Assembly: GCA_015489175.1 (NCBI GenBank)
Contig: WGAI01000067.1
Location: 1-64,000 of the forward strand
Length of the DNA stretch: 64,000 nucleotides
Direction: 5' to 3'
From: Caldifarciminota bacterium
GTDB lineage: Bacteria; Hydrothermota; Hydrothermia; B15-G9
The notes below the pieces were generated by a model, which saw only the letters and a program-made list of their open reading frames with translations, was not told the origin of the DNA and ran no database searches. Shown piece by piece: positions 21,464 to 39,300 of the stretch (the first letter of the stretch is position 1; every line of letters begins with the position of its first letter). The position numbers were made by a program, and so were the translations under genes.

Positions 21464-21898
21464 ATGCAAGGTGTAGGTCAAAAATTAGAGCAAATTTTGA
21501 GAAGCCTCGAGGAGATGGTTCCCGATGTTGAGGCTATAGTTGTTATAAATGACGAAGGATTGGTCCTTGCTTCATCGGTGCCCCTTGGTTTGGATGAGGA
21601 CCGAATAGCTGCAATGGCCACCGTTGCACTCTCTTTAAGTGAGAGGACGATGCGCGAGCTTGATAGGGGCAATTGGGATCATGTTATCATAAGTGGCGAG
21701 AAAGGTATGCTTGTGGTCTATGCTCTTAGCGGTTCACCTGGTGCAATAGCTGTGCTTGCGTCCAGAGAGGCTAAGACTGGAATGATTTTATACCTCCTGA
21801 GGAAGATCGGGGTTGAAATCGTCAATGTGCTTGAAGGGAGAGAGGAAGCAGGAGCCTCTGGGATAGAAGGCACTAATGTAAATCTTCCACCGCTGTAA
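21464..21898 (+). CDS. Roadblock/LC7 domain protein (MglB-like)
   Basis: LEEMVPDVEAIVVINDEGLVLASSVPLGLDEDRIAAMATVALSLSERTMRELDRG…LASREAKTGMILYLLRK. Confidence 0.88.
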   Translation: MQGVGQKLEQILRSLEEMVPDVEAIVVINDEGLVLASSVPLGLDEDRIAAMATVALSLSERTMRELDRGNWDHVIISGEKGMLVVYALSGSPGAIAVLASREAKTGMILYLLRKIGVEIVNVLEGREEAGASGIEGTNVNLPPL

Positions 21899-21914: not shown

Positions 21915-22673
21915 ATGAAGTTTATCTGTGGAATCATCTCTTTCGTATTAGGTGCAATTTTTGGCAGTTTCGCGAATGTCCTTATCTACCGTATTCCGCG
22001 CGGAGAATCCATCGTCTTCCCCGGCTCCCATTGTCCCGTTTGTGGGCATCCCCTATCTTGGAAAGACAATATCCCTTTGATTTCGTATATTCTTTTGAGA
22101 GGTAGATGTAGGTATTGTGGAGCTAAAATCTCGTTGCGTTACCCGTTAGTCGAGTTCACGATGGCGGTTCTCTTCACGATCGGCTTTTTGATCACGGGCC
22201 TGCATGTGCAGCTCCTATTCGTATGGACAGCTTTCTTCTTGTTACTGGTTATCTCATGGATAGATGTGGATCATGGGATTGTCCCCGACGAGCTCACCAT
22301 TGCCGGTGTCGTCATAGGATTGGTTGGACATGCATTGCTTGGCGTTCCGAGTTTGTTGACATCGCTCTGGGGATTGGCTGTTGCCCTTGTGCTGGGATTT
22401 AGTGTTAGATTCCTGGGCAGGGTGTTATCAGGGAGGGAGGCCTTTGGAGAGGGGGATATAACCACCCTTTCTATGATCGGTGCACTTCTCGGAGCTGATT
22501 ATGTATTTGCCGGGATATTCCTTGGTTCCATCGTAGGCCTTATTTTTATTGCAGGTTACTATCTTGTGAGGCGGGAACTGAGCAGGGAAGTGAAGTTTTG
22601 CCCATTTATCTTTGCGAGCGTTGTGATTTACTTCCTTGTAAGCTGGTGCTGCAACATATTTTATATAATCTGA
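21915..22673 (+). CDS. pilD: Prepilin peptidase (A24)
   Basis: GSFANVLIYRIPRGESIVFPGSHCPVCGHPLSWKDNIPLISYILLRGRCRYCGAKIS (two CxxC pairs); WIDVDHGIVPDELT and FGEGDITTLSMIGA catalytic Asp regions. Confidence 0.95.
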   Translation: MKFICGIISFVLGAIFGSFANVLIYRIPRGESIVFPGSHCPVCGHPLSWKDNIPLISYILLRGRCRYCGAKISLRYPLVEFTMAVLFTIGFLITGLHVQLLFVWTAFFLLLVISWIDVDHGIVPDELTIAGVVIGLVGHALLGVPSLLTSLWGLAVALVLGFSVRFLGRVLSGREAFGEGDITTLSMIGALLGADYVFAGIFLGSIVGLIFIAGYYLVRRELSREVKFCPFIFASVVIYFLVSWCCNIFYII

Positions 22674-22727: not shown

Positions 22728-24542
22728 ATGTGGACACAAGCAGAGAGAAGGGCTCTAAGATATATAGCAACAGGGGAATACGATAAGGCCATCTCCGAAT
22801 ATCAGAAATTGCTGTCTGAGGTCGGAGATGACCCGGATATTTATAATGCCATAGGGGATCTGTATATCAAGAAAAAGGATACGCAGAAAGCTGTTGAAGC
22901 CTACCAGAAAGCAATTGAACTATATGAGAAAGATAACCTTGTAGAGAACGCCATTGCAGTAGCTCGAAAGGCTCTCCGTTACGACGAATCCAACAAATAC
23001 CTCTACCTTACGCTGTCTGAACTCTATGCACAGGTGGGAAGACATGACGAGGCTCTCGGTTACCTCTCGGCGTTCCTCGATAAAGGGGTTGAGCAACAGG
23101 ATGTGCAGAGACTGCAGCTGGTTTTTAAGGATATTGCTTCCTCCATTTCCAAGGATATGGAGCGTCAGAAGAGGTTTGAGAGGCTGTTCGAGAAGTTTCG
23201 TAAAATTATAGAAGAGTTAGGTGAGCTGAGTCTTGAGGAAGCCCAAAAGTCAGGTGGCGAGAGCATTAAATTTGACAAAGAAACTGGAAAGTTCAGAAAG
23301 ACAGATGGTAAGGTGGTGCAGTTCGAGCAGCCTTCGGAAGAAGTGCCTGAACCCAAACAGGAAACGCCGGCTGAGTTGTCCGAAGAAGAGCTTGGGAAAC
23401 TCGCCGAATGGCCTTCTGAGGAAGTTGAGCAAAAGGTGTGGCAGGAAAGCGAAACACCGACCCAGCCCGCTCAAACTGGCAGTCAGGCCGCGGAACCATG
23501 GGAATACGGCAGCGAGGGCATGGAGTTAGCTCAACAGGAGGTTAAGCCGCCGAAACATGAGGCTGTTCAGGAACCCCTTGTTGAAGTCCCTGAACATATC
23601 GAGGAGGTAACATCAGCCGCCAAAGAGAAACCCTCTGTCGAGTTTCCTGAATTGGAGGAGGCTCTGGAGATCGGGGATCAGTTTGGAGCTGAGGAAACTC
23701 CGCAGCAACAGGCTGCCGCAGTTCAAGAGCCTTCCGAAAAATCTGTCAGCGAAGATCTGGATGCCATCCTTGACAATCTCAACGAAATTCTGGAAGAAGA
23801 CATGAGCAAGCCTCAGGAGCAGCCAACTGCCACACAGGGGGGGGCGGAAATCGGCGATGTAGAGATGCCTTTTGAAGAGCTGCTGGCGCCACCTGCCGAA
23901 CAGACGCCAATAATTGAACAAACTCAGGCTATCCAGCCCGAACCGACGCCTCAGGAACAACCGATATTTCAGGAACCTGTGACCGAACCTGTCGAAAAAC
24001 TGTCACCGGTTGAGGCCTTCCTGAGATCAACCAAAGAGAAGGAGGTAAAACGCAAGAAGGCCTTCCTTGAGGAGATCAGAAAAGTCCCATCAGCAGGGTA
24101 TTCCCTTCTGTCTATTCTTCAGGATATAAGCTCATATTTGTCATCGTCGTCTCCGTTGTATTATCCCAATCTTGATCCTGCTGAATTTGGCCGCATCCTT
24201 ATGAATATGAAGCTCTACGATGAAGCTTTCCGCCAGTTCCAGAAAGCTTTGCTATATATGAAGCCTTCTGACAAGGCATCGAACATACTGGAAATAACTA
24301 AGTTCGCCGGCATGGCACTTTTTTATGCCCGAAAATACAGGCTGGCCATTAAACAGTTCGAGAGAGCACTAAAGTTGAACAGTCGCGATCCGGAATTGCA
24401 TTATCTGGTCGGCGTGTGTTATGAGCATCTCGGAGATTACAGAAAAGCGCTTGAGGCTTACGAAAACGCATATCTCATAGATGTTGATTTTCGAGATGTG
24501 GCTGAACGGATAAAATCGCTTTCACTCATAGAAAGGAGATGA
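22728..24542 (+). CDS. TPR protein with P/E/Q-rich central linker
   Basis: N-terminal TPRs (YDKAISEYQKLLSEVGDDPDIYNAIGDLYIKKKDTQKAVEAYQKAIELYEK), acidic/proline-rich middle, C-terminal TPRs (YRLAIKQFERALKLNSRDPELHYLVGVCYEHLGDYRKALEAYENAYLID). Confidence 0.85.
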   Translation: MWTQAERRALRYIATGEYDKAISEYQKLLSEVGDDPDIYNAIGDLYIKKKDTQKAVEAYQKAIELYEKDNLVENAIAVARKALRYDESNKYLYLTLSELYAQVGRHDEALGYLSAFLDKGVEQQDVQRLQLVFKDIASSISKDMERQKRFERLFEKFRKIIEELGELSLEEAQKSGGESIKFDKETGKFRKTDGKVVQFEQPSEEVPEPKQETPAELSEEELGKLAEWPSEEVEQKVWQESETPTQPAQTGSQAAEPWEYGSEGMELAQQEVKPPKHEAVQEPLVEVPEHIEEVTSAAKEKPSVEFPELEEALEIGDQFGAEETPQQQAAAVQEPSEKSVSEDLDAILDNLNEILEEDMSKPQEQPTATQGGAEIGDVEMPFEELLAPPAEQTPIIEQTQAIQPEPTPQEQPIFQEPVTEPVEKLSPVEAFLRSTKEKEVKRKKAFLEEIRKVPSAGYSLLSILQDISSYLSSSSPLYYPNLDPAEFGRILMNMKLYDEAFRQFQKALLYMKPSDKASNILEITKFAGMALFYARKYRLAIKQFERALKLNSRDPELHYLVGVCYEHLGDYRKALEAYENAYLIDVDFRDVAERIKSLSLIERR

Positions 24543-24545
24543 GAC

Positions 24546-25685
24546 ATGCCGTCTCTGGCAGAAGTCCTTATAGGTAAGGGTATTTTTACAAAGGAACAGT
24601 TGACCGAAACCCTTAAGGCATTTAGAGGTTCAGGTAAGTCATTTGAAGAGATACTTGTTGAATCGGGACTTATGGACGATAGGAAATTGGTGGAACTCAT
24701 ACTTGCGGTTACTCCTTACAAGTATGTGAACCTCAAAGAATTGGAGATAGATCGCTCAGCCATTAAGCTGATACCTGTGGATATTGCTGAAAGGTTTCTG
24801 GTTTTCCCGATAGCGAAGTCCGGAGATTACCTCTCCTTAGCCATGGCAAATCCCATCGGTAAAGAGGTCTATGATGTTGTGACAAGACTTTCTAACTTGA
24901 AAATCATCCCGTTTGTGGCGAGCATAAGCGATATAAAGTGGGCCGTTGAGCGTTATTACCGCGGAAAAGAAGATGTTGAAAAGGAAGTTGAGCCTGCCTT
25001 TGAAGGGCTTATCATCCATGAAGGGAACAAATTTGCTGTCTCAGTCGCCCGTGATGTGTTAAACCATAAGAAAAAGGGCATCATCATTTTCTATGGGCCC
25101 GAAGGTGTCGGTAAAACATCGCTTTTGAGGGCAGTTTACGACGCACTCGAAAAGTCCGACATGAAAGGCAGGTTTTACAATCCGACCACATTCAAAGCTT
25201 CATACAACGACGCAAAAGTTGATGGGGCTCTTAGATTTTTCTTGAGAGAGTTAGGCATCGTTGATATTTTGCTTTTTGATGACATCGATGGCCTTTACGG
25301 AGAGAAGGAGGTCTGCCAATCAGTCGGTTATGTTGTTGAAGAGCTTGTTGATAGCGGCAGAAGTGTGTTTTTGACGCTTTCCGGAGGGCTTGAGAGCATT
25401 CAGATGGCCGGAAACATAAAACTGAGAAACTTGATGGAGGGTGGGCTTTTAGTGCCTATAACGCCTCCTGACAAGAATGTGATGCTGAAAATACTCGTTA
25501 AGATATCAAAAGAAGAAAATGTGAATATTTCAGATGAAGTTTTAAAATTTATAGTCGATAAAGCAGGCTCCAATTTGAGGCGGCTGAGAGGGGCCATTGT
25601 GCAGCTGAAATCTCTTGAGGAATATGCAGGAAAAAGGATACCCGATGAAGTTGCTAAAAGCATAGTGAGGAGGTATTTAACCTGA
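24546..25685 (+). CDS. GspE/PilB N-terminal (MshEN-like) domain fused to DnaA/Hda-like AAA+ ATPase
   Basis: aa ~1-140 resemble a GspE/PilB N-domain. Then Walker A GPEGVGKTSLL, Walker B VDILLFDDIDGL and a DnaA domain-III-like end, NVNISDEVLKFIVDKAGSNLRRLRGAIVQLKSLEEY. Confidence 0.8.
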   Translation: MPSLAEVLIGKGIFTKEQLTETLKAFRGSGKSFEEILVESGLMDDRKLVELILAVTPYKYVNLKELEIDRSAIKLIPVDIAERFLVFPIAKSGDYLSLAMANPIGKEVYDVVTRLSNLKIIPFVASISDIKWAVERYYRGKEDVEKEVEPAFEGLIIHEGNKFAVSVARDVLNHKKKGIIIFYGPEGVGKTSLLRAVYDALEKSDMKGRFYNPTTFKASYNDAKVDGALRFFLRELGIVDILLFDDIDGLYGEKEVCQSVGYVVEELVDSGRSVFLTLSGGLESIQMAGNIKLRNLMEGGLLVPITPPDKNVMLKILVKISKEENVNISDEVLKFIVDKAGSNLRRLRGAIVQLKSLEEYAGKRIPDEVAKSIVRRYLT

Positions 25686-25686
25686 T

Positions 25687-27333
25687 ATGCTTGGTCTATC
25701 GCTAAAGAGAAGGAAGAAAAATAAGGCAGGAGTTGGGCTCGATCTGGGCAGCAGATTTATAAAACTTGCTGTCCTGGAGAAACGGGGGTCCAGCTTTGAG
25801 TTAAAGAAATATGCTATCGAGGAGATACCTGCTGAGAGCATAGTTGGTAAGGAAATCATGGACAGGCAGGCAGTTGTGGAAACACTTGCTTCACTTGTGG
25901 AGCAGCACGGCCTTGAGGGCGAATTTGTAACTTTCAACATGGCTGGCAAAGGCGTGATGTTGCGTAGAATCACGGTCCCGAAACAGGATCCGAAAGCGCT
26001 TGCTGAATCCATCGAGAGGTATTTGACAGAGAACATACCGTTCGATCTCGCTGATGTGATATGGGATTACAAAATCCTACCCTCAACGGGAACCGAGGAG
26101 GAGATGGACCTTCTGCTTGCCGCTGTCAGAAACGACACGGTTTACTCCATGATCGACATCGTCAAGGAAGCAGGACTTCAGATAGGCGGTATCGACCTCG
26201 ATCCTATTGCCATAGAACATACTATGGCAATAAACGAGTATCTCAACGGGGAAGGCGACATATTCGTTTTCCACATAGGTTATGAGAACACGGAGGTGAT
26301 CCTTTTCCGGGATGGCCTTTTTTACGCTTACCGTGACATACCAATTGCCACAAAGATTTACACAGAGGCCATTATGAGATATCTCGATCTCACATTTGAG
26401 CGTGCAATACCCGTTCTGATAGGGACCGAGATCGAAGGGGCTGAATATGAGGAAGCGATGGGGGTTGTGAGATCTATCAACGAAAGACTTGTCGATCAGA
26501 TAGATAGGCTGTTCCCGACATTGATTTCGCCGGATGAACTTGAAAAACCGCGCGCCATATACCTGACAGGCGGAGGTGCATGGATCATCGGACTCAGGGA
26601 TTTCTTGCAGGATCACTATCAGCTTGCTGTTGACATAGTCGATCCGCTCTTGCAGTTGTCCTATGATACTGAGCTTTTCGGTGAGGAAGACACTCAACAT
26701 ATCTCCCCTATTCTCACAGTTGCAATCGGACTTGCGCTCAAACAGCTTGGTAACGCCACCATCGACCTCGCTCTGTCTCCCGTAGAGGAGAGAAGGGTTG
26801 AGGAAAAGAAGAAAATAAAGATAGGCCTTGAACCGATAGTCGGTGTTTTGAGTGCGGCCGGTCTGGCTGCTTACATTGGCCTGACTTACATGGGACAGGT
26901 ATCCAGAATTAAAGAGCTTAACCGGGAAATCGCTGAGACAAGGGGTAAAATACAGGCTCTTAAACAAAAGGTTGATGAGTTGCAGCAATATGAGGAAAAG
27001 AAAAAAGAGGTGGAGGCCAAGCTTGGAGTGATTGAGGAAGTTGCAAAAGGTAGGTTTTTTCAGGTTAGGATAATGGATGAGCTGAATCGTGTCATGCCGG
27101 ACGGTGTGTGGATAACAGAACTTTCGGAAACTGGCGGCGGATCTGATCAAGTTACCATAACGCTTAAAGGAGGAGCAGTGCAGCCATTTGATGTCACGGA
27201 GTTTATGAGGAGTCTCGAGGATTCTCCGATTTTCAGCAATGTTGAACTTGTCTCAGTGGAACAGTCACATACAGAAACTGAAGTCTATACATCTTTTCAA
27301 TTGAAGTTCACCGCTTCTAACATAGGGAAATAG
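25687..27333 (+). CDS. PilM-PilN fusion, T4P inner-membrane alignment protein
   Basis: N-terminal actin-like PilM (VGLDLGSRFIKLAVLEKRG…IYLTGGGAWIIGLRDFL). Then a single TM (PIVGVLSAAGLAAYIGLTYMG), coiled coil and PilN-like ferredoxin fold (IMDELNRVMPDGVWITELSETGG). Confidence 0.88.
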   Translation: MLGLSLKRRKKNKAGVGLDLGSRFIKLAVLEKRGSSFELKKYAIEEIPAESIVGKEIMDRQAVVETLASLVEQHGLEGEFVTFNMAGKGVMLRRITVPKQDPKALAESIERYLTENIPFDLADVIWDYKILPSTGTEEEMDLLLAAVRNDTVYSMIDIVKEAGLQIGGIDLDPIAIEHTMAINEYLNGEGDIFVFHIGYENTEVILFRDGLFYAYRDIPIATKIYTEAIMRYLDLTFERAIPVLIGTEIEGAEYEEAMGVVRSINERLVDQIDRLFPTLISPDELEKPRAIYLTGGGAWIIGLRDFLQDHYQLAVDIVDPLLQLSYDTELFGEEDTQHISPILTVAIGLALKQLGNATIDLALSPVEERRVEEKKKIKIGLEPIVGVLSAAGLAAYIGLTYMGQVSRIKELNREIAETRGKIQALKQKVDELQQYEEKKKEVEAKLGVIEEVAKGRFFQVRIMDELNRVMPDGVWITELSETGGGSDQVTITLKGGAVQPFDVTEFMRSLEDSPIFSNVELVSVEQSHTETEVYTSFQLKFTASNIGK

Positions 27334-27343
27334 GGGGGAAACC

Positions 27344-27769
27344 ATGAAAATTAAAGCGATTGGTTCGTTGATGTTAGCTATTTTTCTAGGAACAATCATC
27401 TTTACAACATCTTGTAATATGATAGATTACAGAGCTACTGTGTATGGTTATGTGCTATCGGATCCGGATTACAGGAACCCGGTGCCAGATGTAACCGTTA
27501 TCCTCAGAGTTACAAGTGTAAACGATGTGCCTGACTACAACACAATTACCGACGATAATGGCTATTACTCGATAAACTTTGAGGTGGGCTTTAAGGACGA
27601 AAACGGACATTTCATCCCGAACGAAGTCGTAGATGTAATGCTGAGATTCCAGTATGGCGGCTCCACATACACTTTGACCGATTTCAGGGTCTCGGCTGGC
27701 AGCATGGTGATGGCACCTGTCGTTTACCTGTCTCAGTTTGGTAGTGGAGGCGGCGGAGGAGGTAAATGA
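27344..27769 (+). CDS. Predicted lipoprotein with carboxypeptidase-regulatory-like fold
   Basis: Signal plus lipobox-like FTTSC; YGYVLSDPDYRNPVPDVTVILRV…TDDNGYYSINFEVG; Gly-rich C-terminus. Confidence 0.65.
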   Translation: MKIKAIGSLMLAIFLGTIIFTTSCNMIDYRATVYGYVLSDPDYRNPVPDVTVILRVTSVNDVPDYNTITDDNGYYSINFEVGFKDENGHFIPNEVVDVMLRFQYGGSTYTLTDFRVSAGSMVMAPVVYLSQFGSGGGGGGK

Positions 27770-27770
27770 C

Positions 27771-28412
27771 ATGGCACTCGATCTGAAGAGCCTCAAACTA
27801 CCGTCCAATCTCCCGATAAACACGAAATTCCTGCTTGTTCTGGTAATTAGCTTCAGCGCAATAATTTATGTTTACATAAAGTATTCTTATAACCCCAAAA
27901 AGAAGGAAATTGAGGACTTACATCAGCAACTTATCGACCTTAAAAACGATTATGCTGCCCTTCAAGTGCAAGTTCAGAACTTGCAGGAGACAAAGAGGAA
28001 GCTCGATTCTCTGAAAGTTATATGGAGTCGAATCCAGGTCCTGTTGCCGGACAAAAAGGACATTCCGGGGTGGTTTGATGACATAGTTGCGGCTTCCCGC
28101 AGTGCCGGCATCGATGTCATGCAGTTTAAGCCCGCCCCCCCGAAACAGTCCGACAAATATACAGAGTATCCTTTTGATGTAACTTTTCGTGGCACATATC
28201 ACAGTTTTGGCGCCTATCTTGCAGCGATAGCCAACCATCCTCGGATAACAAGGGTTAGCGATGTGAAACTATCATCCATGGACAGGCAGGAGGGCGAACC
28301 GTGGACGCTTCAAGGGTCGATGACGATCTCCACATTTGTATTCAACCCCGGTTTTCTTGAAAAGCAACAACAGCAGCAGAAAGGAAAGGCCGGCAGCGGC
28401 CAGAAGCGATAG
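27771..28412 (+). CDS. pilO: T4P assembly protein PilO
   Basis: N-terminal TM, coiled coil, LLPDKKDIPGWFDDIVAASRSAGIDVMQFKPAPP…YPFDVTFRGTYHSFGAYLAAIANHPRITRVSDVKLSS. Confidence 0.9.
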   Translation: MALDLKSLKLPSNLPINTKFLLVLVISFSAIIYVYIKYSYNPKKKEIEDLHQQLIDLKNDYAALQVQVQNLQETKRKLDSLKVIWSRIQVLLPDKKDIPGWFDDIVAASRSAGIDVMQFKPAPPKQSDKYTEYPFDVTFRGTYHSFGAYLAAIANHPRITRVSDVKLSSMDRQEGEPWTLQGSMTISTFVFNPGFLEKQQQQQKGKAGSGQKR

Positions 28413-28424
28413 GGAGGTGGGTGC

Positions 28425-29129
28425 ATGACAGGTTTACTTGTAATGTTTCTCGTGTCTGCGAGCATAAAAGAAATTAGAACTCAGCAGGTTGGAAAAGAGG
28501 CCGTCGAGATTTCGATTGTGGCGGATGCTCCGATCGACAACTTTGACCATGTGCTTTTGATGCGCCCATCGCTCCGCATAGTCATAAGCATACCCGGATT
28601 GAGTTACGACCTGCCATCCGACACGGTGAATGTAGGCAAAGGCCCGGTTGACAAGGTAGTCGGATTTGTCAAGTCAAGACGCCCTCTCGAATCCAGAGTC
28701 GTCATATACCTCAGAAAGAGCGTTCAATACAGGGCTACACTGAGCGCCGATAAGAGCGAGTTGATTTTGTTTATTGGTGAGGTCGATACTACCTCCATCT
28801 CGACCGAAGGCCTGCTTTATTATCCCAGAAGGGCGCCTTTTCTTTACTCCGCTCGATACAAAAGGGATCCGTTCTCCATGCCTAGCCTCAAATCGATAAG
28901 CGATACCCTTCTTGAGGTTAACGGGGCGAAACTCGTGGGGGTTCTTGAGACACCTACGGGCAGAGTGGCCGTTGTAAGAGCATACAATGGCAGGGGGTTT
29001 GTTCTTCATGAACACGATATCGTAAAGAACGGGATCGTGAGCGAGATAGGCAAGGATTATGTCATTTTTACGATAAGCGATTATGGTTTTACAAGGACGG
29101 TAGTCCTCAGACTTAAGGAGGAGGAATAA
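28425..29129 (+). CDS. AMIN domain plus PilP-like protein
   Basis: N-terminal AMIN-like beta region (VEISIVADAPIDNFDHVLLMRPSLRIVISIPGLSY…SRVVIYLRKSVQYRATLS). C-terminal PilP-like RDPFSMPSL…LVGVLETPTGRVAVVRAYNGRGFVLHEHDIV. Confidence 0.72.
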   Translation: MTGLLVMFLVSASIKEIRTQQVGKEAVEISIVADAPIDNFDHVLLMRPSLRIVISIPGLSYDLPSDTVNVGKGPVDKVVGFVKSRRPLESRVVIYLRKSVQYRATLSADKSELILFIGEVDTTSISTEGLLYYPRRAPFLYSARYKRDPFSMPSLKSISDTLLEVNGAKLVGVLETPTGRVAVVRAYNGRGFVLHEHDIVKNGIVSEIGKDYVIFTISDYGFTRTVVLRLKEEE

Positions 29130-29131
29130 CT

Positions 29132-30346
29132 ATGAGAAACAAAATAATTTATATTTTGTTGACACTTTTTCTATTGGCTGGCAATGTGGCCTCGCAGAAC
29201 GCTGGACGCGTGAGCGTGGACTTCCAAAATGCTGACATCTCGCTTGTGCTTAAAACATTCTCCGATATAAGCGGCAAAAACATCGTGGCCACCAAGAATG
29301 TGAAAGCAAAAGTGACGGTTACACTTAAAAATCTGCCATGGCAGCAGGCATTTCAGACGATACTCGACATGTATGGCCTTACTTACATCGAGGATAACGG
29401 AATTATAAAGGTCATGACCGTGGAGGAATCCAAGCGATTTCGGGAAACAAGGCAGCCTCAAACGCATATTTTCCAGATCAAATATGCGAAAGCTGATGAA
29501 TTGCAGGGTGTTGTGTCGCCGCTACTTTCATCGAGCGGAAAAATTGTGGTGGATAAGCGCACCAATTCGCTTGTTATCACGGATGTGCCAAGCGCAATAA
29601 GGGAGATAGATTCTCTGATACAGCAGCTTGACACACCTACACCTCAAGTCCTGATTCAGGCCAGGGTTGTGGAGATCAATCACAGTGTTGCAAAGGCACT
29701 TGGAATAGATTGGTCGGCTATCCATCCTGACAACCCGGCGACTGGACTTCCGTTCAATGTCAAAGTTCCACTTGGCACGGCAGCAACAGGAAGCATAAGA
29801 TTTGGCAAGTTCATAGCTGGCATGGGCATAGATGCGACCATCGACATGCTTGAGAGCGAGAGTAAGGCTAATGTGCTGTCTCAGCCAAGCATAATCGTTG
29901 CAGATAACCAGCAGGCTGAGATACTTTCTGGTAAACAGATACCGATCATAACGAGGGATATGGCTGGCAATCAGGTTATTCAGTTCTACAATGTTGCACT
30001 TAGGTTGACCGTAACGCCTCACATAAGCCCTGACAGCACGATAACGCTTGAGCTTAACCCCGAGGTTAGCGATATAGCCGGTGAGGCGCCGGGCGGTGCA
30101 GGTGTGATGATATCCACGCAGCAGGCGAAGACCCAGTTGACCGTCAAAAATGGCGAGACTGTCGTTATCGGTGGCATTATGAGGTCGCACAAGAAAGAAG
30201 GCGAGTCGAGAGTTCCTTTCTTTTCCCGTATCCCGTTGATCGGAATGCTATTTAAATCCAGAAGAGAAGATTCTGAGAAATCGGAACTTATGATTTTCGT
30301 TACCCCAAGAATTATCTCTTATGCAGGAGTTAGTTCCTCTGAATGA
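29132..30346 (+). CDS. pilQ: T4P secretin, compact
   Basis: STN domain (VSVDFQNADISLVLKTFSDISGKNIVATKNV), N1 domain, secretin domain ending FFSRIPLIGMLFKSRREDSEKSELMIFVTPRII. Confidence 0.96.
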   Translation: MRNKIIYILLTLFLLAGNVASQNAGRVSVDFQNADISLVLKTFSDISGKNIVATKNVKAKVTVTLKNLPWQQAFQTILDMYGLTYIEDNGIIKVMTVEESKRFRETRQPQTHIFQIKYAKADELQGVVSPLLSSSGKIVVDKRTNSLVITDVPSAIREIDSLIQQLDTPTPQVLIQARVVEINHSVAKALGIDWSAIHPDNPATGLPFNVKVPLGTAATGSIRFGKFIAGMGIDATIDMLESESKANVLSQPSIIVADNQQAEILSGKQIPIITRDMAGNQVIQFYNVALRLTVTPHISPDSTITLELNPEVSDIAGEAPGGAGVMISTQQAKTQLTVKNGETVVIGGIMRSHKKEGESRVPFFSRIPLIGMLFKSRREDSEKSELMIFVTPRIISYAGVSSSE

Positions 30347-30378: not shown

Positions 30379-33300
30379 ATGAAGAAGATTTTGTCTATTT
30401 TTATATTGGTGATGGCGGTATCCAATGCAGCTGCGTCTCCGGTTTACATTACGAATGTCGAAGTGGAGCCCAATCCATTCAGTCCTAACGGTGATGGGAG
30501 GGCGGATACAACAACTTTCTCATTCATACTTAGTGGCTATGTGGATACTGTCTATCTAAGGATATTCCGCGATTCGCTTAACACGAGCACAGGGCTCAGA
30601 GACACTGTAATCGACTCTATCGTCGCTGTCCTTACTCCTGGAATTCAGGGTGCCAATGTGATGGCATGGACTAATGTCGAGACCGATCCATCCATATTGC
30701 CGGATGGGCCGTATCACTATTTCATTTACGGTAGCGATACGACGGACACGGCCACAGGTATCGTCTATATAGATAGACAGCCACCTACAATTTACAATGT
30801 CTCTGTGACACCCAACCCATTCAGCCCAAATGGAGACGGTATCAACGACTATGCTCACATTGCGTTTTCGGTCACAGGCAGTTACCGCCCTGAGGACAGC
30901 CTGTTTTTCCGTAAGCCACCTCTGGGCATTGGTTATCTTCAGCTGTGGTATCAGAACGGTGCAGGTCATGGCGTGTTTGTGGCCAATGCAAAGGTAGATT
31001 CAGCGGATGGACATGTCGATAACATCATCGAATTCCCTTATCCGGTGTATCTCGCTCTGGCTGTCGGTGGACTTCAGGGGCTTGAGCAGGTCGATCTTAG
31101 GTTCTTCGATTACGCCAACAGGGCCATCGACATTACGGCTCAGCCAAATGAGGACATAAGAATTGGAATACCAGAAACTTACCTGTTGAACAAATTTATG
31201 TATTTCTCCTCAAGTTCGTTCATCGTGACGAACATGGACTCTCTTGATCCAGGAGTTTCAATCCTGATACCTGTTTACGCATTTACTGGTAACGCATCGA
31301 TAACGATCACTGACATCAACAATCAGGTTGTAAGTGTTGTTGATTTCGTGGATGTTTACAGAGGAGATGGTAATTACTTCACGGATTGGGGGCCTGACAA
31401 CATACCCGACGGCCTTTACACATTCAGCATTCAGGCACAGGATGAGTCCTACAATGTGGAGCTTTACACGGGCAATGTGATAGCCAATTCGATACCGACA
31501 AATGTCGATTCCCTGACCGTTTCACCGTCAGTTATCTCTCCAGCTAACCTTGATGGGCGAGCTGACGCAGCGCTCGTGCAGTTCTCCATCTCCGAAGAAG
31601 CCCATGTGACTGTCAGGGTTTATAACTCTGCTACACAGTGGGATACAACGACGCTTGTCAGGACTTTGATAGGCGATTCTGTCATGCAGGGCGGCAGCCA
31701 CTCCTTGACATTCGACGGAAGGGACAACAATGGGAATTTCCTCGCACAGAACAGTGACAGCACATACACCGTCGTCGTCACAGCTTACGATCCATATACC
31801 CTCGATTCGGATGTCAAATCGGCGCCGATAGTTGTGGACAATCTTTCGCCGTCCTTTGACACACTTTACATCAACACTCTGGTCAACAACACCATCGATA
31901 CCCTTTACGGAAAGGTAAACGAGCCGGGTAGTGAAATTCGCGTCTTTCGCAACGGATATCCCATAGGCATAGCCATCGCCGATTCCATAACGGGTAACTT
32001 CTCGCTTGTTGTCACCTATGTTGAGGGCATAAACACATTTACAGCAATCGCTTACGATGCAGCATACAACAGTGACACGGCGTCCGTCACGGCTCTCTGC
32101 GACCTTCATGCCCCGACACTGGCCTCAAGTTCGCCTTTCGACGGCGAAGCATTCCAGACTTTCACGATCGCAAACGGCAAAGCTGTTTTGATCGATAGCA
32201 TCTATCATGACAGTGCATCTGGTATCGATTGGGCCACCGCATCGGTTCATCTCTACTACGAAAATTATCTCAGAGACACATATCTTGGTTCCCCGATAAC
32301 GCATCTCGGGGATACGCTTTTCATCCCGTTCATCACGGATTCAATAAACGCCCACAGCGGCCATTACAGGCTTATCGTTTCGGTTCAGGACAGGGCAGGC
32401 AACACGATGTTCGATACCGTGAGATTTACGGTCGATAGAGTTGCTCCGACTATTGTCACGATTCCAGATTCCGGTTCACCTACGAACATGCTGGATACGG
32501 TGATGGCAGTAATTCGGGACTCGATATCTGGCGTTGACACGATCAGCACTACCGTGTCACTTGAGAAACGCAATGTGAGAACGATCGAGGGAACCACTTT
32601 CTGGCGTGGAGATACGGTATTTTTCGTGCCACTTTCTCCGATACCGCGCGATGGCTCTGATGACGGCGAGTATATCTTTGCCGTCGATGCCGTGGATAAG
32701 GCCGGAAACTACACTCCAAAGCGCTCTTTGATTATTTACGACACAAGGCCGCCGCACATAACGACATTCTGGCCGCCTGACAGCTCAACTTTTCAGGATT
32801 CTGTGACAGGGATCGACACCATATTTGCAGTTGTCAACGACAGCTTTGGCAGTTTCGCCGGCTCAGGCCTTGATGTCAACTTCTCGCTCATAAGGCTTGT
32901 GAACACAAATAACGGGCAGGGTGTGATCGGAAATCAGATCTATCATGGCGATACTCTGAAATGGGCGATCGACCCAACGCTCTACGATCCGGCATACGGG
33001 TTCAATGAAGAGGGCACATACATGATAACCGTCACGGCTACGGACAGCGCTGGCAACTCTGCAGACACATCATCGACATTTATCATCGACCTGAGCAGCC
33101 CGATCGTGACCGAGGTCTATCCAGCTGACAGCGCTTATGTGAATGCGAGCCCTGAAAACATCCACGCCATCGTCGTTGAGAGGGGAAGCGGGATAAACAA
33201 ATCCGCATCTTACATCCACATTTACAGGCCTGACGGTGGCGAGGTGCCCGGAACATACACTTTTGTGGGCGATACCCTGCTGTTCTCACTCGAAAATCCG

Positions 33301-36300
33301 TTCCCTGAGGACGGGACATGGGACGGCCAGTTCACCATAGTCGTTCATGTGGAGGACAATGTCGGCAAGACGGTCGAGGACACATTCCACTTCATTTATG
33401 ACACGCAACCGCCTCAGGTTGTGTGGTCCACGCCGTCTGACAGTTCCTACCTCAACCGCAATTTCGAGACCGATTACAACAGGACCATTAAAGTGCGGTT
33501 GAGCGATGCAACATCCGGACTTGATTTCGGGACAAGCGGACTTAGCATCCTCGTGAACTGGGAAAACTACAACGCCTCACCGTCCAACTACCTGAGGTTG
33601 CCGCCAGATACGCTTGGCTTCCACTTCGATAGCCTAATTGAAGGCGAGATTGAAGTTGTCGTCTGGGGCTACGATCACGCTAACAACCTGTTGAACGATA
33701 CTCTGATCCTCATTGTGGATACCACAAAGCCGAGCGTGGTCTTTGTTCCGGACAGCGGGACTATGACAAATTCGCTCAGCACATTCTCGGCCTACATTCG
33801 TGACCTGTTTGCCGGACCTGACACGGCCAGCACACACCTTGCGGTTTACCGGCTGGACAGCCCGTCCGACACCACTTCGATCGGCCTTGACCATTACGAA
33901 TGGCTCGGTGACACCATCGTGTTCTACCCGTATCCTCCGATCGCAACCGATGGGTCAAACGATGGCGAATATCTCATAAGGGCCTATGCTTACGATAAGT
34001 CTGGCAATGTCGATTCAAGCCGAATTTCAACGATTTTCTACGATTCAAAGCCGCCTTATGTCGTTTCTCACTCGCAATCGAGCGGTGCAGATACGCTCAT
34101 AACCGATACGCTGAGCGAGATCTGGGTTCTGCCGTCTGATGCCAACGGATTGAGGTGGGTGTCCGGGATTGATACCAACGGCACTCAGGTCTCAGTTGTT
34201 AACCAGTTCGGCGCTGCGATTGCGGGACACCGTGAATGGCGCGGCGATACGCTCTTTTTCGTGTTCGATAACCCTATATCGGCCGATGGCCGCTACACGG
34301 CGAGGGTCTATATGGCCGACCTCGTCGGCAACACATCCACGGATAGCTTCAGGTTTGTGGTTGACCTGAATTCACCTCAGATCACATGGAGCGACCCGGC
34401 AGACAGCTCCTATGTCAACTCACCGCCGAACGAGATCAGGATCTTCATTCAAGACCTTGGAAGTGGTGTCAACTTCAATGCGTGCTCGGTCGTGGTTTAC
34501 ACGCCCAACATGGGCACGGTCCTCGGTCACACCGAGGTCAGGAACGACACCATCGTCTTCGTGCTTGAGGAGACACTGCCGACGGACGGCTCCGCCGACG
34601 GCGTTTACACCGTTTTGGTATGGGGTCAGGACAACAACAACAGGCCGTTGTCACCTTCCAATCCCGATACGCTGATGTTCACATTTGACACGCAGGTGCC
34701 TCAGCTCGTGAGCTACTATCCGACTCGCGATACGGCACTTAACCAGTTCAATTCGCCCGAATTCGGGCCTGACACCATATTCGCAAGGCTTAGAGATGCG
34801 ACAGCCGGCGTGGATCTCACGACAAGCGACCTGACCCTTCTCAAATACGGGTTGCCTATAAGCGGTGTGGCAGTCACGCGGCGTTCAGCCGATACCACTT
34901 TGATAATGGCCCTGCCATCAGGTCTTGAGGAGGGCAGATATTCGTTCGTCGTCAAAGAGGTCGATTTCGCTCACAACCTCAAGCGCGATAGCATAAACTT
35001 CGTCTATGACCTCACAGGTCCGGTGATTTCGGCGCTGATGCCAGACAGCGAAAAACTTAACATGATCGATTCGATCGACATCTCGGTCATCGACACGCTC
35101 GCAGGCACTGACACCATGCAGACGAACCTGACTGTCAGACTGTTAGATGCAGGCCGCACGATCGGCGGTGATATAGTCTGGCTGGATCCTTCAACTGTCA
35201 GGTTCGTCCCTGATCCGCCGCTTGCCACAGACGGCTCCGATGACGGACTTGTTGAAGTGGAAACGCATGGATTTGACATGGCAGGGAACGGCTCTGTCGA
35301 TACTTCATACCTGATTTACGACACGAGGCCGCCTCGCATTGTGGACGACAGAATCGATTTCTTCCGCGATACGCTAACGCACACGCCTGTCGGCAGTCTG
35401 GTCATGCCGACGGACACCGTAATCGAGGACAGTTTCTTCGGGCTCAGGGTCGCTCTCGATGACAGCTATTTCGGCCGCACCGTTTCCGGGATTGACCCCG
35501 TCAGGAGCACTGCATCGCTCACCTATCAAGGAGGTGCAGCTATACCCGGCATAACGATGGTCAGCAACGATACGCTCTACCTCACGCTTTCCGATACCAT
35601 TCGTGAGGATGACAGGTTCACCGCACGGTTCAACATCGCGGACGAAGCGGGCAACAGCAGCGAATACGAACATAACTTTATCGTTGACCTTTATCCGCCG
35701 GTTCTCGCCGGCACTGTGCCGCCAGATGGCGGATTTATCAATTCACCTCCAACCTATGTGGCGGCCAGCATCTTCGATAACGGGAGCGGTGTCCTTATGG
35801 ACACTTCAGTTACGAAGATCACATTGATCGCTCCCGACAACCATATCGTGCTTGGCTATAACGAATTTGTGAACGATACGCTTTATTTCAGGATCCAGGA
35901 GAACATCGATTCCACGGGCATTGCGGATGGCACATACACGATGATCGTTCGGAGCATGGACAACAGCGGCAAGGGATTTGTTGATACGCTTAGCTTTGTG
36001 CTCGACACGCAGCTGCCGTCCCTCGATTCATCGCTGGCTGTCGTGAACGGAAACGAGTATCCGCTTGAGGATGGGTATTTCAATCAGGCGCCTGATACAT
36101 TGTGGTTCTACCTCAGCGACAGAACGTCCGGAGCCAACCTCCTTTCGAGCGGAGTTTCGCTCCACAGATACGGCCAGCTTCTTGAGACATCCATTGTTAG
36201 GGATACGGTCAATGATAGGCTTGGCATCGTGCCACTCTCACCGCTTGATGATGGGCGATATTTCGCACGAGTAAGCGTTGTTGACCGTGCTCTCAATTTC

Positions 36301-39300
36301 CTCGTCGATACAGTTTCTTTTGTGATCGACCGTGTGGCACCAAGCATCGATGTGCAGCCCGAAAACGGCGTTGCAGTTAATCGACTCGACACGATAACGG
36401 TTTACCTCAACGATACGCTTGCAGGAATTGATACGATTACAACCACCGTGTCGCTCACAGGCCCGAACGGCGATGTGCCTCTGAATGTCAACTGGATAGA
36501 TGGCGTTCAGGCCATTTGCACCCCTGTTCAGCCGCTTGCCACCAACGGCTCGGACGACGCAGACGACTATGTGATCTATGTTGAGGCCTACGACAAAGCT
36601 AACAATGTATCCGTGTCAAGTGTGCATATAACTTATGATACACGGCCGCCTTATGTTACCGAGAGGTTCCCGGATTCACTCTCACTTGGCGATGTCAATT
36701 CTGTCTGGGTCAGGTTTGCCGACTCGTTGAGCAGCTCAGTTCACGGCTCAGGAGTGGATTCTGTGCTCTCGATCATCCGCCTGACTCGTGCTGAGACGGG
36801 CGAGGCGATACCGGGTCAGAAGATTGTGCGCGGCGATACTCTGATTTTCAACATAGATGCCGCTTATGCACCGCTTGCAGATGGAAGATACAAGTTCTAT
36901 TCAATCCTTTACGACAAGGCTGGCAACATGGATAGCCTTGAGTATGAGTTCGTCGTTGACACGCGCGGCCCATCGCTTGTTTGGAGCATGCCGCGCGACA
37001 GTGGATTTATAAACTACCAGCCGCAGGCCATTTACGCATTAATCGCCGATGAGGGCACAGGCCTGAATTACGACACCGCACTTACAAACATTCGGGTTCA
37101 GGGGCCGGATGGCAGATATCTGATAGGTTACAACGAGTTCATCGGCGACACGCTTGTCTTCCACATAACGGATTCGTCCCTCATTGATGGCTACTACAAT
37201 GTAGAAGTCAGGGCGCACGATATGATAGGAAGGCCTTTGAACTACGCGCCTTCCGGAAGCTACGATTCTGTTCAGGTGCTGACATTTGCGATAGACCGCA
37301 GGCCGCCAACTCTCGCATGGAGTTATCCCGCACACGACACGGCAATTCAGAGGCCGGAGGGGCCGTATGTGGTTGAATTCAACGATCTTCTTGCGGGCAT
37401 AAACCTCTCATCAAGTGGCGCGGATCTGATGCATTACGGCGTGCCCGTTGAGATAAACATCACTCGTGTGGATTCCGGCGATGTGGTGATCGGCAACGAT
37501 ACGGTGCATGTGACGAACGCACTGGTTATCCAGCCTGTTGATAGCGGCAGTTTCGATGTGGAAGGCCGCTATAAACTCGCGGTTATCGGCGTCGATAAGG
37601 CTTTGAATGTCGTGCAGGATACGATACAGTTCATAGTTGACAGGCAACCGCCTGAGCTGACATTTTATCCTGCCGATAGCAGCTACCTCGATTCTATCGA
37701 TAGAATTTATGTGATTGTCAGCGATACGCTTGCAGGTGCGAACAATTCGTCAATCGATTTCGCACTGGTCGGCCCGAACGGTGACATGAGTGGCACCTTG
37801 AGCTGGTATGGCGATACTGCTGAGTTTGTGCCCACCAACCCGTTCCAGCCCGGCGGATATTACGATGGGAAATACAACATTATCGTTTCGGCTTACGACC
37901 GCGCCATGAACATGGCTTATGGCAGGTCCGATTTCATCTACGACACCAGGCCACCCTATCCGACGATGTTCTATCCGTCTCAGGATTCCGTCGTGCCTCG
38001 TCCTGTGTATTACGCATGGATGAGGCTGACAGATGTGTATGACACCATGCGCGAGGTGTCCGGTGTGGACATAGGCGCGTGCCAGATCGGTGTCCTCGAT
38101 CCGGATGGTGTTACCGTGCCAGGCAACATGGTGTTCGAGGGCGATACTGCGATAAGATGGAGCTTCAGAAACGCAATCATCAGGGATGGAAGATACACGG
38201 TCTGGGCGAAGTATTACGACCGCGCTGGCAACTTCGATAGCACATCTTACGAGTTCACGCTCGATTTGAACCCGCCTGTGGTCGTTTGGAGCTCGCCTGA
38301 GGACAGCAGTTACATAAATCACTCAATTCAGGATGTGCAGGTGGTGCTTGACGATCGCGGCGGCTCAGGAGTGAATCCGGATTCATCTCGCCTATATCTC
38401 GTTGGACCGAACGGAGATACGCTTTTGGGATCCTTCAGCATAAGCAACGACACGCTCAACTACCACCTCGTTAGCCCGCTGCCGGCCGACGGCTCAGCGG
38501 ATGGAGTTTACAGGATGCTGGTGCACGGCAGGGACTATGTGAACGACCCAGCAGTCATCGGCGACCACACCATAGATGATACCCTGATGTTCGTTTACGA
38601 TACCCGTGCGCCATACCTTGTAGCATCTTATCCAATTGACAACGCAATGCTTAACACGGCGCCAGAGACCCTTTGGGTGCAGCTTGGAGATCAGCTCTCA
38701 GGCGTCTCGCTTGGAACGAGCAACCTGACGCTGTTCGTCAACGGCCTCATCGTGCCGGGCACGGTCTATCGCGATGTTGTTCACTCAAGGCTGATGTTTG
38801 TGCCCGATAATCCGCTTACGGACAACGAATACAGCCTTCTCGTCTTTGCAAGGGATACTGCCACCAACGAGTTTGTCGATACGGTAAACTTCATCGTGGA
38901 CACTCAGGAGCCGGATGTCGTTATAACGCCCAATGATGGTGCGACCGTCAACCAGCTTACGGAAATCACGATGTCCGTTGAGGACAACATGTCAGGTGTG
39001 GATACGACATTGAGTTACATAAATGTCACAGGGCCTAACGGCGTGGTTGCCGCTCAGAGATATTGGACGGGCGACACGCTTCATTTTGTGCCGACGCCTC
39101 CGCTCAGAACGGATGGCAGCGATGATGGCAGATACACTGCTGCTGGCGTTGGTTATGACATGGCAGGCAACATAGATGTGAACACGATCAGCTTCATTTA
39201 CGATACCAGACCTCCGTTCGTTCAGGAATTTTATCCTCAGGACATCCAGATAATGCCGCTGAGAGCGGTCTGGGCAGTTGTGTCCGATACGCTGCCCGGC

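Follow-up and report, generated by a model that had tools for sequence, protein, structure and literature searches.

The fusion gene and its operon

The window analysed here is a single stretch of 64,000 nucleotides from a genome of the deep-branching bacterial phylum Caldifarciminota (WOR-3/Hydrothermota), Caldifarciminota being NCBI's current name for Hydrothermota. It contains a type IV pilus (T4P) operon with the following genes.

21464..21898, + strand: Roadblock/LC7 protein, conserved upstream in families f1 and f3 only
21915..22673, + strand: prepilin peptidase (A24; Pfam)
22728..24542, + strand: TPR protein, 604 aa, with Pfam matches to repeat families only; the immediate upstream partner
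24546..25685, + strand: MshEN-DnaA fusion gene, 379 aa (open reading frame, Pfam, NCBIfam, PDB, phylum profile search)
25687..27333, + strand: PilM-PilN fused gene, 548 aa, immediately 3' of the fusion in every case
27344..27769, + strand: small putative lipoprotein, conserved in the operon
27738..28412, + strand: PilO (Pfam)
28425..29129, + strand: PilP-position protein, conserved in position, with no Pfam match of its own
29132..30346, + strand: short PilQ secretin, 404 aa (Pfam, NCBIfam)

The PilM-PilN product bears a partial resemblance to Amuc_1101 of Akkermansia (NCBIfam E = 2e-49, with a score well short of the cutoff). The gene directly after pilQ (30379-41706) encodes a repetitive protein of 3775 aa.

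Translation confirmed the 379-aa reading frame of the preliminary description, and a Shine-Dalgarno-like GAAAGGAG lies just 5' of it. The features of the fusion gene are as follows.

24552..24710, + strand: MshEN_N helical subdomain, residues 3-55 (NCBIfam, AlphaFold2 model, motif check)
24717..24971, + strand: MshEN (PF05157) stretch, residues 58-142 (Pfam; fold match to 5htl/6ejf/9g1w)
24966..24992, + strand: flexible linker, residues 141-149, pLDDT < 50 (AlphaFold2 model)
24996..25460, + strand: DnaA domain III AAA+ core (Pfam, AlphaFold2 model, fold search)
25095..25118, + strand: Walker A, GPEGVGKT, residues 184-191, intact
25260..25289, + strand: Walker B, VDILLFDDID, residues 239-248, intact
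25419..25433, + strand: box VII/arginine-finger region, KLRNL, residues 292-296 (alignment; roles per PMC5742627)
25470..25679, + strand: AAA+ lid helices with sensor-2 Arg345 kept; the protein ends here, without domain IV

The N-terminal part had been described as a GspE/PilB-type domain, and profile searches identified it as such with Pfam MshEN (PF05157; residues 58-142, E = 3.4e-16, 59.4 bits against a cutoff of 23.1) and NCBIfam PilB (TIGR02538; residues 4-149, E = 2.6e-17). For this part, a PDB sequence search returned the N-domains of PilB, PilF and MshE. The C-terminal part matched Pfam Bac_DnaA (PF00308; residues 151-280, E = 8e-13, above the curated cutoff) and TIGR00362 DnaA (residues 151-377, E = 1.4e-31; 110 bits, below the whole-protein curated cutoff of 343.9), and its best PDB chain was T. 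maritima DnaA (2z4r, E = 5e-23). The Hda profile TIGR03420 scored E = 3e-13 (49.8 bits against a cutoff of 194.8). Of the original "DnaA/Hda-like" label, the DnaA domain III assignment therefore stands, and the module is nearer to DnaA than to Hda. The PilB core profile T2SSE (PF00437) gave 13.5 bits (cutoff 24.9) over the Walker A alone, AAA_22 gave 24.0 bits (cutoff 27), below Bac_DnaA, and Pfam found no peptidoglycan-binding domain in the window protein.

We examined the same assignments with an AlphaFold2 model of the window protein built from 23 family members, which confirmed both folds (mean pLDDT 86, with residues 141-149 disordered). A Foldseek search with this model placed DnaA domain III at the top (2z4r, TMt 0.85) and also returned the N-domains of MshE and PilF. 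Between Walker A and Walker B the model has two tandem helices (residues 213-225 and 229-237), an arrangement known as an initiator-specific motif (PMC5742627). Two assignments had been named in advance as contradicting the proposed architecture, namely a GspA/ExeA or RecA-type core at the C-terminus and an N-terminal part other than T2SSE_N. Neither was found: profile and fold ruled out the former, and the N-terminal part is MshEN. We firmly identify the window protein as a MshEN/PilB-type N-domain joined to a DnaA domain III AAA+ module.

As originally reported, domain IV is absent. Bac_DnaA_C (PF08299) had no match in the window protein and did not appear in the family lists of the 23 members, whereas the genome's real DnaA, on another contig (C43), matched DnaA_N, Bac_DnaA and Bac_DnaA_C. 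The claim that the PilB core has been replaced holds for the protein but not for the organism, which encodes an intact PilB grouped with PilT, PilC, PilS and PilR on contig C44. Because genuine DnaA, PilB and PilT are encoded elsewhere, the fusion replaces none of them and is an addition.

Spread, synteny and origin

A profile search of 147 genomes of the phylum recovered the full-length fusion in 33, from 12 families; this count was made by hand from the listed matches and includes the partial matches of G043, G054 and G055. Twenty-two of these genomes belong to seven families (f1, f2, f3 and f8-f11) of the window's class, which we call Hydrothermia after the Hydrothermota titles of its members. 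The other 11 come from families f32-f35 and f37 and form a second clade, f32-37. Both domains were matched in Pfam by all 23 aligned members. Outside this alignment, L049 and L054 keep MshEN, with Bac_DnaA below the threshold used. Divergent members include L053:7212-8729 and L054:9129-10508, in which the C-terminal region or lid after the AAA+ core is rebuilt, and L049:4799-5971, which has lost the Walker A Lys.

The T4P operon setting of the preliminary description was found throughout. A fused pilM-pilN gene follows the fusion directly and on the same strand in 33/33 genomes (29 of the 29 loci examined, plus G024, G046, G048 and G132 by coordinates), and a TPR gene directly precedes it in 26 of the 28 loci with upstream sequence. 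The genes usually run prepilin peptidase, TPR, fusion, PilM-PilN, small putative lipoprotein, PilO, PilP and short PilQ. Among the 147 genomes, the fusion is absent from every one with a stand-alone PilM of ~350 aa. Twenty-eight genomes of families f23-f27 have the fused PilM-PilN and lack the fusion gene, so fused PilM-PilN as such does not require it.

Two further features of these operons were recorded. PilQ measures about 400 aa in fusion operons, whereas the other pil operons retrieved for the phylum encode versions of about 516-590 aa. In f37, a free-standing MshEN gene of ~144-167 aa lies between TPR and fusion (L043:8042-8533, L061:4243-4746, L060:5642-6076), and these loci carry a further short TPR reading frame as well.

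Outside the phylum, we found no fusion in 60 Actinomycetota genomes besides L073 ('Hydromicrobium americanum', PEXF01000113), and DnaA and PilB matches are separate there. L073 was rejected as an outside case: its pil operon is like those of f32, and this WOR-3-like contig is most likely misbinned or a contaminant. A broader contig scan with two short peptide patterns, which rarer or diverged cases elsewhere could escape, otherwise found the fusion only in WOR-3/Hydrothermota/Stahlbacteria or in MAGs matching genomes of the phylum. A chimeric contig or frameshift artefact was also rejected, given the recurrence of the fusion in 33 independent genomes and its low dN/dS. In the literature searched, which lay mostly outside subscription journals, no paper brought together MshEN, DnaA, PilB and type IV pili. 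The fusion is a new T4P-associated family, conserved as the class of AAA+ proteins that had been suggested, and we found no earlier description of its architecture.

A tree of the AAA+ part was rooted with Actinomycetota DnaA after removal of the most divergent-looking entries, namely eight rows of the fusion and four of DnaA that were divergent. In this tree the fusion AAA+ modules form one clade (100/100) within a clade of the phylum's DnaA and fusion proteins (100/100), and Hydrothermia DnaA is nearest to them (86/95). An unrooted tree with more rows separated fusion from DnaA (99/99), its long branches making finer placement unsure. The fusion AAA+ arose inside the phylum's own DnaA, which bears out its description as a repurposed initiator-type ATPase. 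Comparison of the window gene with its 95% relative gave a dN/dS of 0.071 (N-half 0.076, AAA+ half 0.068), and the fusion is under purifying selection. Identity among Hydrothermia members is 42% for the N-domain and 25% for the AAA+ module, a pattern that would be expected were docking the constant task in this class. In f32-37 the order is reversed, with 44% for the N-domain and 57% for the AAA+ module.

In family f7 of the window's class (G035-G042, up to 93% complete), DnaA domain IV and T2SSE were matched in none of the eight genomes. Each has one weak AAA+ match, and PilM appears as a single weak match, in G041. This family may lack a canonical DnaA.

The c-di-GMP motif and the AAA+ active site

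MshEN domains that bind c-di-GMP carry two copies of a 24-residue motif (RLGxx..Q), for which a relaxed form is also described (PMC5013675). The degeneracy noted beforehand extends to both copies in the window protein, where R/G/Q are replaced by S/A/F and S/E/V, and across the family, in which 0/29 members match the relaxed form. The same test was passed by two PilB proteins of the phylum and failed by the window genome's own PilB. A c-di-GMP sensor was accordingly rejected, and judging from sequence the family is unlikely to bind this nucleotide. MshEN domains can act in ligand sensing and not in docking (PMC5013675), and the MshEN of the fusion may have some other ligand, which would speak against a docking role.

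We then compared the active site with E. coli DnaA, using the residue roles given in PMC5742627. All ten f32-37 sequences compared have the Walker A Lys, the Walker B Asp, sensor-1 Asp269, the box VII Arg (Arg281), the arginine finger (Arg285) and sensor-2 Arg334 (E. coli numbering), and a model of one member has 47-48% identity and a TMt of 0.92 to B. subtilis DnaA domain III. At these six sites the window protein has K, D, S, K, L and R; both Arg281 and Arg285 are lost, their equivalents being K292 and L296. Family-wide, the Walker A Lys is kept in 28/29 members and the Walker B Asp in 29/29, and most keep the sensor-2 Arg. The sensor-1 Asp is lost in all members of the window's class and the arginine finger in most (L035, L047, L048 and L053 still align an Arg), while sampled true DnaA proteins have Arg at the finger position in 21 of 21. 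These losses make hydrolysis by homo-oligomers, and an active ATPase cycle, doubtful in the window protein and most of its class. The term "switch ATPase" thus calls for qualification: f32-37 has the full set of residues, while the window protein lacks the arginine finger and the sensor-1 Asp.

The same losses could mean that the Hydrothermia AAA+ module is a pseudo-enzyme, a structural spacer that connects PilM to the TPR protein and perhaps to PilB, without switching driven by nucleotides, and the lower identity of this module relative to the N-domain points the same way. We consider this unlikely: Walker A and B are intact in nearly all members and the sensor-2 Arg in most, dN/dS is the same for the AAA+ half as for the N-half, and f32-37 retains the whole catalytic set.

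Descent from the phylum's DnaA also raises the possibility that the module forms a pair with DnaA and shifts the ATP state of the latter, thereby coupling pilus assembly to the cell cycle. Hda, itself an AAA+ protein without domain IV, is a precedent, and the interface residues Arg281 and Arg285 are kept in f32-37. Nevertheless, such a link is improbable, because the fusion gene always lies within a pil operon, the interface residues are mostly lost in the window's class and the profile is closer to DnaA than to Hda. Moreover, we know of no Hda protein that carries MshEN.

It is more improbable still that the module is a DNA-uptake factor, acting on single-stranded DNA that enters by way of the pilus and ComEC. 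DnaA domain III does bind single-stranded DNA through its H and B motifs (PMC5742627), and the window genome encodes ComEC. Yet only f37 and L059 keep the B-motif Arg (E. coli Arg245), which gives way to other residues in the window protein and most members, and domain IV is absent from the fusion. ComEC occurs almost throughout the phylum, whether or not a genome has the fusion or pili, so its distribution is uninformative. A PilB-type N-domain on an ATPase in a pil operon might suggest a motor that stands in for a PilB-type ATPase in assembling pilins or the secretin, but this is scarcely credible, given that T2SSE (PilB/PilT-type) ATPases are encoded in all fusion-bearing genomes (beside the operon in L053, L054 and L043), that the window protein has no arginine finger, and that DnaA-type modules are switches, none being known to us as a rotary or translocating motor.

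Proposed role and comparison with known systems

On balance, we lean towards the fusion being a phylum-specific T4P component whose MshEN domain docks on PilM and whose AAA+ module, at the base of the pilus, works as a switch or adaptor that depends on ATP. MshEN-PilM biology and gene order suggest such a role, in keeping with the regulator or localisation factor first proposed. On this reading, the fusion arose when a duplicate of the host lineage's DnaA lost domain IV and was joined to a docking domain of the PilB/GspE N1 type. The constant presence of pilM next door makes PilM docking the best reading of this PilB-type N-domain, which most likely binds the cytoplasmic PilM ring, the product of the next gene, via the surface that the N1 domain of PilB uses. 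PilB sits in a socket of PilM, and T2SS structures suggest that its N1 domain contacts PilM (PMC11656802). Docked in this way, the protein would bring a DnaA-type AAA+ to the base of the machine, where the product of the upstream TPR gene is a probable partner.

DnaA modules are ATP switches that act through head-to-tail contacts, which makes a switch or scaffold the likeliest role. ATP binding would then license the assembly or exchange of PilB/PilT motors. In f32-37, ATP hydrolysis by head-to-tail oligomers could also be part of the switch, whereas in Hydrothermia the switch would be mostly hydrolysis-poor or an ATP-bound scaffold. We suggest only tentatively that in f32-37 the fusion assembles on the PilM ring into head-to-tail oligomers that resemble those of DnaA and depend on ATP, and that these gate access of PilB and PilT. 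If true, this would be a class of pilus control without known counterpart.

Replication initiation and its regulation are the settings in which DnaA-type ATPases are known. In the case described here, a single lineage appears to have transferred such a switch, stripped of the domain that reads DNA, to a machine of the cell surface, and has retained it for a very long time, across 12 families. The fusion is a natural experiment on the capabilities of domain III by itself. Control of PilB/PilT exchange at the PilM base is an open question (PMC11656802, PMC11580455), for which the fusion offers a test.

In Myxococcus, the TPR protein SgmX recruits PilB, and the SgmX/FrzS/SopA polarity factors provide an analogy, and only that, for cytoplasmic TPR-linked recruitment of PilB to the T4P base (PMC11580455). 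In contrast to the fusion operons, no AAA+ protein is described in that system, and the window genome has no clear MglA-type GTPase, near the Roadblock gene or elsewhere, only weak PF00025 matches. Other MshEN fusions carry REC, HD-GYP, CheA, CheX, cyclase or kinase outputs (PMC5013675). The fusion resembles them in that MshEN stands at the N-terminus, ahead of an output domain foreign to it; it differs in that DnaA AAA+ is absent from the main-text outputs of that study and its motif is unreadable as a c-di-GMP site. Like Hda, the fusion has a DnaA-type AAA+ without a DNA-binding domain, but it matches the Hda profile more weakly than that of DnaA, carries MshEN and sits in a pilus operon. 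It shares subdomains and fold with the N1 domain (MshEN, PF05157) of PilB/GspE and lacks N2, the RecA-type motor core and the c-di-GMP motif. Unlike DnaA, the fusion has MshEN instead of domains I, II and IV and lies in a pil operon, and the window protein is without the arginine finger. It nonetheless has the fold of DnaA domain III, with Walker A and B, the two tandem helices between them, the sensor-2 Arg and the lid, and in f32-37 the likeness extends to the sensor-1 Asp, the box VII Arg and the arginine finger.
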